Positions 4,985 to 50,430 of a stretch of DNA of 64,000 nt are shown here, piece after piece. The stretch is from Salinadaptatus halalkaliphilus (lineage in GTDB: Archaea > Halobacteriota > Halobacteria > Halobacteriales > Natrialbaceae). The stretch is from NCBI RefSeq assembly GCF_006543045.1, contig NZ_RBZW01000011.1, positions 1-64,000 of the forward strand, written 5' to 3'. The translations under genes and the position numbers were made by a program. The notes under the pieces are model-generated. The model made no database searches, had not been told where the DNA came from, and saw only the letters and a list, made by a program, of their open reading frames with translations. Numbering within the stretch: position 1 is the stretch's first letter; every line of letters begins with the position of its first letter.

Positions 4985-5039
4985 CGATCGGTGCGGGCGA
5001 AAGGGTGCCTTCAAGTCGCCCGCGGCGGTAGGCCCAGCC

Positions 5040-6290
5040 ATGAATCCAGGCGATCGCGTTCGCGTCGACCGCGCGGATCGAACGCTCGAGGGCGTCTTGC
5101 TCCCCTCGAGTACCGACGAGAACCTCGTCGTGAAACTCGAGGGCGGCTACAACGTCGGCATCGACCGCGGTGAGGCAGACGTCGAGGTACTCGCGGAAGA
5201 CGTCTACGAGATCGACGGCACTGGCTCGAACGGCGACGACGAAACGTCCGAGATCGCGTTCGACGACGATCTGCCGACGATCACGCTCATCTCGACCGGC
5301 GGGACGATCGCCTCGACGGTCGACTACCGGACCGGCGCGGTGACCGCGCAGTTCGACGCCGAGGACGTCCTCCGGGCAGTCCCGGATCTCGCCGGGCGGG
5401 CGAACTACCGGGGTCGCGTCGTCGCGAACATCCTCTCTGAGAACATGGAGCCGCCGATCTGGCAGGAGCTGGCCGCGGTCGTCCACGAGGAGATCGAGGC
5501 CGGTGCCGACGGCGTCGTCGTCATGCATGGCACCGACACGATGCAGTACTCCGCGGCCGCACTCTCCTTTATGCTCGAGACGCCGGTCCCGATCGTCTTT
5601 ACGGGCTCTCAGCGTTCGGCCGACCGACCGTCCTCGGACAACGTGATGAACGCCGTCGCAGCCGTCGAGGCCGCAAAGAGCGATTGCGCGGAGGTGCTGG
5701 TCTGTATGCACGGCTCCGAGAGCGATGACATCTGTGCGCTCCACCGGGGCACTCGCGTCCGGAAGAATCACACCTCCCGCCGCGATGCCTTCGAAACCGT
5801 CGGCGCGGAACCGCTGGGGGCGGTCGACTACGAGAACGAAGCGGTCTCTTTCCGTCGGGACTACCAGGAACGCGGCGAAGCCGACCTGGCGCTCGAGTCC
5901 GATCTCGAGGCCGACGTCGAACTGCTGAAGTTCACGCCAGGGATGGACCCGGCCTTTCTCGACGTCGTCGAGGGCTCGGCCGGCCTTATCGTCGAGGGGA
6001 CCGGTCTCGGCCACGTCCACACCGACCTCATCCCCCGCATCGAGGAACTGATCGACGACGGCACGACCGTCGTCATGACCAGCCAGTGTCTCGAGGGCCG
6101 GGTCTGTGACCGGGTCTACGATACCGGTCGCGACCTGCTCGAGGCCGGCGTCGTCGAGGCCGGCGACACCCTGCCCGGAACGGCGAAAGTGAAGCTGATG
6201 TGGGCGCTCGAAAACAGCGCGGACGTCGAAGAGGCGATGGGAACCTCGCTCGAGGGCGAACTACAGGAACGATCGGTTCCGTGGGAATAA
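5040..6290 (+). CDS. gatD: Glu-tRNA(Gln) amidotransferase subunit D (asparaginase-like)
   Basis: The archaeal GatDE complex converts Glu-tRNA(Gln) to Gln-tRNA(Gln); GatD releases ammonia from an amide donor. It has 416 residues, the usual GatD length. The N-terminal beta-barrel domain (1-75; MNPGDRVRVDRADRTLEG) distinguishes it from plain L-asparaginases. The asparaginase core has STGGTIAS (85-92, catalytic Thr89), HGTDTMQYSA (163-172, Thr165-Asp166) and TGSQRSADRPSSDN (188-201), with a downstream Lys near 213. The start is the ATG at 5040. gatE is not in the window. Confidence 0.95.
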   Translation: MNPGDRVRVDRADRTLEGVLLPSSTDENLVVKLEGGYNVGIDRGEADVEVLAEDVYEIDGTGSNGDDETSEIAFDDDLPTITLISTGGTIASTVDYRTGAVTAQFDAEDVLRAVPDLAGRANYRGRVVANILSENMEPPIWQELAAVVHEEIEAGADGVVVMHGTDTMQYSAAALSFMLETPVPIVFTGSQRSADRPSSDNVMNAVAAVEAAKSDCAEVLVCMHGSESDDICALHRGTRVRKNHTSRRDAFETVGAEPLGAVDYENEAVSFRRDYQERGEADLALESDLEADVELLKFTPGMDPAFLDVVEGSAGLIVEGTGLGHVHTDLIPRIEELIDDGTTVVMTSQCLEGRVCDRVYDTGRDLLEAGVVEAGDTLPGTAKVKLMWALENSADVEEAMGTSLEGELQERSVPWE

Positions 6291-6389: not shown

Positions 6390-7343
6390 ATGAATATTCG
6401 GCGAGCGACGCACGACGATTACGAGGCCGTCCGGGCGTTTACGAGCGATATCTGGGCCGATCGCGGCGGTGACTACATCCCCGACGTCTACCACGACTGG
6501 CTCGAGGACCCCGACGAAACGGGTAAAAAGACCTTCCTCGCGGAGGTCGACGGCGAGGCGGCGGGCATCGTCCAAGCGGTGATGCTCTCGTCCGACGAAG
6601 CCTGGTTTCACGGGATGCGCGTCGCCTCCCAGTACCGACGCCAGGGCGTGAGTACGCGATTGAACGAGGCGACGTTCGAGTGGGCCCGCGAGCAGGGCGC
6701 GACGGTCGGTCGGGTGATGATCTTTTCCTGGAATACGCCCTCGCTCGGAATGGCACGGGCGAGCGGCTTCGAGCCGATCACGTCGTTTCGATTCGCCCAT
6801 CCCGATCCCGATTCGGACGCCGCAATTCCGGCGTCGCGGACGGTCTCGAGCGATCCGACCGCGGCCTGGCGCTACTGGACCCACAGTGACGCTCGAGCGC
6901 ACCTCCGGGGGCTCGGACTCGCACCCGAGGAATCGTGGTCGATGCGCGAACTCACACCAGCCGATTTCGAACAGTTCGCGGACGAGACGGCCGTCTTCGC
7001 CGTCGGCGGTGACGACAGATGGTCGGGCGTCGCCTACCGAACCCGTACCCTCGAGCGCGAACCTGACGACGACGCGAACTGCAGCGACGGGATCGATGAA
7101 GCGAGTGCCGACACCGAGACGATCGCCGAGTACGGCGTCGGCGCCTGGGACGACCTCGAGTCGGCCCGTGCGCTCTTCGGTGCGATCGCTCGTGATGCAG
7201 CGCGACTCGAGGCAGAGACGATACGCATCGTGATTCCCGAGACAGCCCGGTACGTGACCGACGCCGCGTACGCGGGCGCGAAACTCGCCGACGAACCGGA
7301 TTTCGCACTTGGACTGGACCTGACTGGCGACGTGTGCGTATAG
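6390..7343 (+). CDS. GNAT-family N-acetyltransferase
   Basis: A 317-residue protein whose first about 150 residues form a GNAT acetyl-CoA-binding fold: MNIRRATHDDYEAV start, FLAEVDGEAAGIV strand, then GMRVASQYRRQGVSTRL, the Q-x-x-G-x-S motif A near residues 82-91. The C-terminal half is a second, diverged GNAT-like domain (YGVGAWDDLESARALF and VTDAAYAGAKL). The substrate is unknown. The ATG at 6390 is chosen because the domain begins there. It is convergent with the SAMP1-like gene; a 73-bp palindrome fills the gap. Confidence 0.85.
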   Translation: MNIRRATHDDYEAVRAFTSDIWADRGGDYIPDVYHDWLEDPDETGKKTFLAEVDGEAAGIVQAVMLSSDEAWFHGMRVASQYRRQGVSTRLNEATFEWAREQGATVGRVMIFSWNTPSLGMARASGFEPITSFRFAHPDPDSDAAIPASRTVSSDPTAAWRYWTHSDARAHLRGLGLAPEESWSMRELTPADFEQFADETAVFAVGGDDRWSGVAYRTRTLEREPDDDANCSDGIDEASADTETIAEYGVGAWDDLESARALFGAIARDAARLEAETIRIVIPETARYVTDAAYAGAKLADEPDFALGLDLTGDVCV

Positions 7344-7416
7344 TAGTCAGCGAAATCATTCACACACTGATCGCAGCGCAGTCGTGCGTCGGGTGTGCAG
7401 TGACGTTCACTGACTA
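7344..7416. repeat. palindromic element family C, copy 1
   Basis: An imperfect 73-bp inverted repeat with ends TAGTCAG/CTGACTA. It shares the 15-mer GGTGTGCAGTGACGT and the full layout with a second copy at 50151-50224. It starts directly after the stop of the GNAT gene and its right end overlaps the 3' end of the SAMP1-like gene, providing its final codons. Confidence 0.6.
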
Positions 7417-7703
7417 CAACAGCCGCCACTGACCGGCGGGAACAGCGCCAGTTCGTCGCCCGCCTCGAGTTCGGTCTCGAGCCCCTCTTCCTCGACCAGA
7501 ACGTTCGTCCCGTTGCGGAGGACGTTGATCTGTGAGCGCAACTCGCCGTCGTCGGTTTGAACGCGCTCTGTGAGTTCCGAGCGACCGTCGAGCAGTTCCT
7601 CGAGTGCGTCACCGACGGTATCGCCGGCCGACGCGTCGACCGTGACGTGTTTGTCCCCTGCGCGTTCGGCGAGGTCGGCGAACAGTTTCCACTCCGTGGT
7701 CAT
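7407..7703 (-). CDS. SAMP1/MoaD-type ubiquitin-like modifier with four residues after Gly-Gly
   Basis: A 98-residue beta-grasp protein (MTTEWKLFADLAERAG) matching haloarchaeal SAMP1/MoaD: the N-terminal WKLFADLAE strand, INVLRNG (59-65), and ELALFPPVSGG (84-94). SAMP1 acts in protein sampylation and in molybdopterin synthesis through a C-terminal Gly-Gly activated by the E1-like UbaA. Here Gly93-Gly94 is followed by CCSQ before TGA, so the di-glycine is not terminal. The last two codons and the stop come from an adjacent palindromic repeat. Either a peptidase must trim the tail, or the protein cannot conjugate. The start is the ATG at 7703. Confidence 0.88.
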   Translation of the reverse strand: MTTEWKLFADLAERAGDKHVTVDASAGDTVGDALEELLDGRSELTERVQTDDGELRSQINVLRNGTNVLVEEEGLETELEAGDELALFPPVSGGCCSQ

Positions 7704-50008: not shown

Positions 50009-50430
50009 TCTCCAGCGCTCGCATCGACACGCTCGCCACGTCCCCACTGTCCTCACATCGGCACTCTCGCTGCAACGTCGCTCACAACACCAGCAGTCCC
50101 GACGGTGATGTCGGTAACGCCGTGGCGACAGCCACACACTCGACCTATAGGACCAACCGCAACGATGTACACACTGGTCGTACAGCTTTCGTGCGATCAG
50201 GTGTGCAGTGACGTGCAGTGGCTACGATAGGTTCGAACGCGAGGAGCGCGACCGTTTCAGTGCGATCAATGGCGCCTTGCCGCCGCCGTAGTCCACTCGA
50301 GGCGTCGAACGCGAGGCGCCACCAGAGTCGGTCGCGCTCGAGCGACGCCGATCGCCAGCCGTCGGTTGCCCTCGTTGTCTGGCGCGCATAACAAAGCATG
50401 ACTGTCGCGTCTAGCTGGTTCGCAGAACCT
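50009..50430. other. intergenic region with a palindromic element (about 420 bp)
   Basis: Contains family C copy 2 (50151-50224). A TATA-like GCATAACAAAG near 50386 precedes the exported protein gene. Other open frames here are short or lack third-position bias. Confidence 0.45.
50151..50224. repeat. palindromic element family C, copy 2
   Basis: A 74-bp imperfect inverted repeat. It shares the 15-mer GGTGTGCAGTGACGT (50200-50214) and about 70% of positions with copy 1 at 7344-7416. An outer CCTAT/ATAGG pair (50144, 50227) may extend it. Confidence 0.55.

Follow-up and report, generated by a model that had tools for sequence, protein, structure and literature searches.

SAMPs serve as models of how ubiquitin arose, and SAMP1 requires a free C-terminal glycine. 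Eukaryotic ubiquitin precursors are matured by deubiquitinases; SAMP1 of Haloferax is encoded already ending in Gly-Gly, and it is for this reason that the JAMM protease is known there for deconjugation. HvJAMM1 of Haloferax volcanii cuts a linear SAMP1-MoaE fusion precisely after the C-terminal Gly of SAMP1 (VSGG) and is required in vivo for this fusion to work (PMC4443979). The SAMP1 gene described here, located in the window (the whole stretch of 64,000 nucleotides analysed) on contig C7 of a 4.5 Mb haloarchaeal genome, encodes a member of the same family with the same PPVSGG end, and JAMM, UbaA and MoaE are likewise encoded by this genome; the H. volcanii protein, however, ends at Gly-Gly, and the cleavage there is that of an engineered SAMP1-MoaE fusion, not of a natural tail (PMC4443979). 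The SAMPs of Caldiarchaeum subterraneum are, as here, natural archaeal precursors with residues past Gly-Gly, and are cut by CsJAMM, but they belong to a different lineage, and the portion of the report considered here describes no mobile-element origin for their tails (PMC6043591). Among the family genomes compared, the host genome is alone in its genus; its named relatives are Natrialbaceae and include Natronorubrum, Natrinema and Natronococcus.

Encoded C-terminus of the SAMP1 gene

The gene is located on the minus strand at 7407..7703, with its frame open from the ATG at 7703 to the stop TGA at 7409-7407, and encodes a SAMP1/MoaD-type ubiquitin-like protein of 98 amino acids, MTTEWKLF...ALFPPVSGGCCSQ*. 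Homology extends over the whole domain of the ThiS family (PF02597, 51.9 bits in the profile search), and the best solved relatives are the Haloferax SAMP1 structures 2l83, 3po0 and 4hro (E about 2e-22, query residues 3-95), by which we identify the gene as a SAMP1 orthologue. At its 3′ end, the two codons GGC GGC for Gly-Gly (7427-7422), which form the C-terminus in most relatives, are followed by TGT TGT AGT CAG TGA (7421-7407), that is, by a Cys-Cys-Ser-Gln tail and the stop, all within a mobile element. The sequence-only reading, which had the protein ending PPVSGG-CCSQ, is thus confirmed by translation, and the frameshift that it had named as a possible source of this end is not needed, the conserved frame being intact up to Gly-Gly and the tail being close to what the element end is expected to encode. 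A sequencing or assembly error at 7410-7425 would be a simple alternative in so far as a single-base change from TGT to TGA would place the stop directly after Gly-Gly; we regard it as very improbable, in view of the agreement of these bases with a repeat-family end at all but two positions, the presence of the same TGTTGT after Gly-Gly in the independently sequenced genome G091, a Natronococcus-type MAG, and the occurrence of tails in many relatives.

Identification of a palindromic element at the SAMP1 stop

The palindromic, MITE-like element was located at 7339..7421 (without strand assignment, the putatively duplicated TA at each end included) on the basis of its inverted arms, its fold, its nhmmer score (50.8 bits) and its copies throughout the family. 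It is a degenerate palindrome with the potential to form a long hairpin (RNA fold z -3.9), in which the TA on the SAMP1 side has decayed to TG. The element family gave 26 matches in the host genome and is present in 87 of 125 family genomes as dispersed copies of about 85 bp with terminal inverted repeats CTATAGTA and TACTATAG and without a transposase ORF, the features by which a MITE is recognised. A second and better preserved copy is found in the window at 50146-50229 (84 bits). The copy at SAMP1 is probably old, since it has decayed to at best 88% identity with any other copy found. Short non-coding mobile repeats are likewise known in haloarchaea from the MITEs and small mobile repeats of Haloquadratum (PMC3119063).

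Alignment of the copies gave the ends C/TATAGTAGTCAGTGAAA...TACTATA/G, the slashes marking the element boundaries. Where the C before the boundary is the last base of a GGC glycine codon, as in the SAMP1 frame, the consensus C/TATAGTAGTCAGTGA translates as Tyr-Ser-Ser-Gln-stop. As the end of the SAMP1 gene is this element end with two substitutions, the whole tail and the stop come from the element, and CCSQ is, as read from the sequence, its built-in YSSQ tail with two replacements. The palindrome had been proposed to contain the stop and the two sense codons before it; it does, but it contains all four tail codons as well, the element body extending over 7339-7421. Several other reading frames end YSSQ* or YSSH* at other copies of the element, from which we conclude, on sequence grounds, that a Tyr-Ser-Ser-Gln/His tail followed by a stop is built into the element end, and that many proteins may have been given a C-terminal tail in this way. 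Frames of this type, ending YSSH* or YSSQ* inside element ends, were noted at loci L186, L174, L177 and L185. On the other side of the element, the convergent gene for a GNAT acetyltransferase (6390..7343, plus strand) receives its stop TAG (7341-7343; GTA TAG) from the other element end, which adds about three residues (VCV) as compared with most relatives.

Target site of the element

In the aligned copies, the flanks of the element are mostly C and G (C...G), with repeated TA. One pair of filled and empty sites was available: the filled site in genome G061 reads GTTGTACC-TA[element]TA-GCGGTTCG and the empty site in G060 reads GTTGTACC-CA-GAGGTTCG, so that C-TA[..]TA-G faces C-CA-G, which fits a 2-bp duplication at C-NN-G. 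At a second site examined for the same purpose, the element copy was present in both genomes and no empty site was found; comparison of L093 with L036, both Natronococcus-type, was rejected as too diverged. The C...G flanks and the repeated TA, with which the one empty/filled pair agrees, suggest insertion at C-TA-G with duplication of TA, as in IS630/Tc1-type elements. Duplication of the target TA by IS630/Tc1/mariner elements is treated in PMC2170065, the CTAG preference of IS630 being cited in its reference list. These elements and their MITEs resemble the present one in the short inverted-repeat structure without a transposase gene and, as the flanks suggest, in the duplicated target TA and the CTAG-like site, a target habit from which the IS630-type assignment is drawn.

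At SAMP1, the target was probably an amber stop directly after the Gly-Gly (GGC TAG), cut in two by the element, and the identity of the original stop would follow from this target habit. The idea that GGC-TAG is a common context of the SAMP1 stop proved wrong, as CTAG is found there today in only one of 70 Natrialbaceae relatives, in keeping with the scarcity of CTAG in the window; the base after the far TA of the SAMP1 copy is C, not G. Over the whole window, CTAG is strongly depleted (24 occurrences against 215 expected from base composition and 64 from a Markov model). The proposal that an insertion displaced the original stop is supported by the YSSQ* consensus of the element end and by element remnants also at the Gly-Gly-Cys-Cys tail of G091, and we consider the insertion origin of the tail, as reconstructed from these sequences, to be well supported.

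Survey of SAMP1 C-termini in haloarchaea

Among 70 Natrialbaceae genomes read at the gene, SAMP1 ends exactly at Gly-Gly in 62, followed directly by TGA (23 genomes), TAG (22) or TAA (17). Comparison with close relatives, proposed as a check of the masking, thus shows that it is real. Tails are carried by the remaining 8 of the 70: CCSQ in the host genome, CCNPN in G091, SFASRAVGFR in G040, SVERR in G096 and G097, SF in G027, A in G084 and GRR in G122; in G068, a family member outside this set, SAMP1 ends in AR. For the whole class, we searched for SAMP1 ends whose next codon has a pyrimidine at the second position, such a codon never being a stop. Matches were obtained in 48 of 382 Halobacteria genomes. 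All 49 matches were inspected, and 43 proved to be genuine SAMP1 genes, from several families, whose tails are 1-10 residues long; such tails are thus present in at least 43 of the 382 genomes, a lower bound that covers tails starting with a codon of this type.

The masked Gly-Gly is therefore not the exception that it had been taken for; tails are common across Halobacteria, and SAMP1 evidently tolerates a few residues past its Gly-Gly. No match to the palindromic element was found at the other tailed loci where checked, and the element is thus one of several routes by which SAMP1 lost its stop. Four-residue tails of the type SVGR, AVGR or SGGR are shared by the SAMP1 orthologues at loci L285-L296 and L272-L283, mostly of genus g33; this x-x-G-R pattern, found in many species of one genus, is possibly a conserved propeptide there. 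CCSQ-like tails in relatives lacking the repeat had been named as evidence against an insertion origin: repeat-free relatives do have tails, but these differ from CCSQ, and the Cys-Cys type was seen only together with the element. A class-wide search for the pattern FPPV-GG-Cys-Cys detected only the host genome among 391 (G091 being outside that draw).

A second Cys-Cys tail

In G091, the SAMP1 gene ends GGC GGC TGT TGT AAT CCC AAC TGA, and downstream of it lie decayed versions of both element arms, separated by an unrelated insert (L083 2276-2335 and 2381-2433). The arms score 9.8 and 17.3 bits; as the left-arm score alone is weak, it is by their position and order that the arms are taken as a putative element remnant. 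In SAMP1 and GatD trees, G091 is placed within its genus beside tail-less genomes, and sharing of the Cys-Cys tails through sister lineages was rejected (SAMP1+GatD trees, AU p 2e-5 for protein and 6e-6 for DNA); the DNA identity of SAMP1 between G091 and the host genome is no higher than that to other relatives. As the trees reject the grouping of the two genomes, two insertions at the same SAMP1 codon are the simplest reading of these sequences, the event having probably occurred twice, while a transfer confined to the 3′ end of SAMP1 between the two lineages may also account for them. In both tails, Cys stands in place of the Tyr and of the first Ser of the element tail, an agreement between two cases that may be due to selection, to coincidence or to transfer of the gene end only. 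Under selection, Cys-Cys would have arisen twice from Tyr-Ser element tails owing to a useful Cys after Gly-Gly, which might for example ease release, either as a JAMM substrate resembling CysO-cysteine or by thiol-assisted cleavage, and the element would twice have written a functional propeptide; we hold this to be doubtful. Separately, element copies were observed near SAMP1, including upstream of it, in two Natronococcus-type genomes (L093 1878-1956 and 2538-2621; L036 1336-1456), and a MoaD/ThiS-like protein of the host genome (L004, contig C41, 311726-311836) ends PFMFCC, with terminal Cys-Cys and without Gly-Gly.

Predicted maturation of tailed SAMP1

The host genome contains a UbaA-like gene, a MoaE gene and, on contig C28, a small protease with the HxHx10D motif (PF14464, 78 bits) that matches the solved JAMM1 structure 5ld9 and is, by these similarities, a JAMM/MPN+ enzyme. 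A single 779-codon frame with ThiF/E1 and JAMM domains was also found on contig C58 (L136/L139, about 5000-6200); it resembles the UbaA-JAMM protein Nmag_0356 reportedly present in Natrialba magadii. Taken together, we consider it probable that a functional SAMP1 is made as a precursor, of which the element-written tail at the stop is removed by JAMM to give mature SAMP1. The short palindromic element with an apparently IS630-like target habit would have inserted at the SAMP1 stop (GGC TA/G), its end bringing Tyr-Ser-Ser-Gln-stop, now Cys-Cys-Ser-Gln-stop; the four-residue tail would block adenylation by UbaA until the HvJAMM1-like JAMM/MPN+ protease cuts after Gly-Gly, and mature SAMP1 would then enter sampylation and molybdopterin synthesis. 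The tail is probably a dispensable propeptide; its removal by JAMM is the best-supported mechanism because HvJAMM1 and CsJAMM cut SAMP fusions or precursors, and proteolytic maturation is on this comparison plausible. A JAMM homologue alone is no proof of action on the CCSQ tail, and the contig C28 enzyme is regarded as the candidate protease.

Trimming by a general peptidase instead of a Gly-Gly-specific JAMM might be read from the wide variation of the tails (CCSQ, SVERR, SF, A, GRR, SVGR), as if their sequence were irrelevant, but a JAMM acting on SAMPs joined to many different targets would have to accept varied residues after Gly-Gly as well, and the cut of HvJAMM1 after Gly-Gly is precise (PMC4443979), which leaves this alternative improbable. 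The main rival to maturation by JAMM is a takeover by a second modifier with exposed Gly-Gly: the tail would never be removed, SAMP1 would be inactive in both conjugation and sulfur transfer, and the paralogue ending PPVAGG (contig C9) would serve in its place. Two further ThiS/MoaD-type modifiers with exposed Gly-Gly are indeed present, the VAGG protein and a third ending VYGG (contig C71), and SAMP1 activity may for this reason be dispensable. Many relatives, however, have a second SAMP1-like match next to a SAMP1 without tail, and tailed SAMP1 genes are widespread in the class. Loss of SAMP1 function is also made less likely by the preservation of its frame and Gly-Gly beside a decayed element copy; we therefore regard the takeover as unlikely. 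Pairwise comparisons of SAMP1 gave dN/dS of about 0.1-0.3, in favour of a functional protein, though much of this signal predates the insertion.

In the literature searched, we found no description of a mobile-element origin of a SAMP1 tail or of the frequency of such tails in haloarchaea, which is not proof of absence; new here are thus this origin, apparently twice, and this frequency. The locus illustrates how a propeptide can be added by a mobile element through a hit at a stop codon. With natural tails present in one tenth or more of the haloarchaeal genomes covered, JAMM may also be a maturation enzyme, a role that would parallel that of deubiquitinases on eukaryotic ubiquitin precursors, and for which the tailed SAMP1s would offer many natural substrates.
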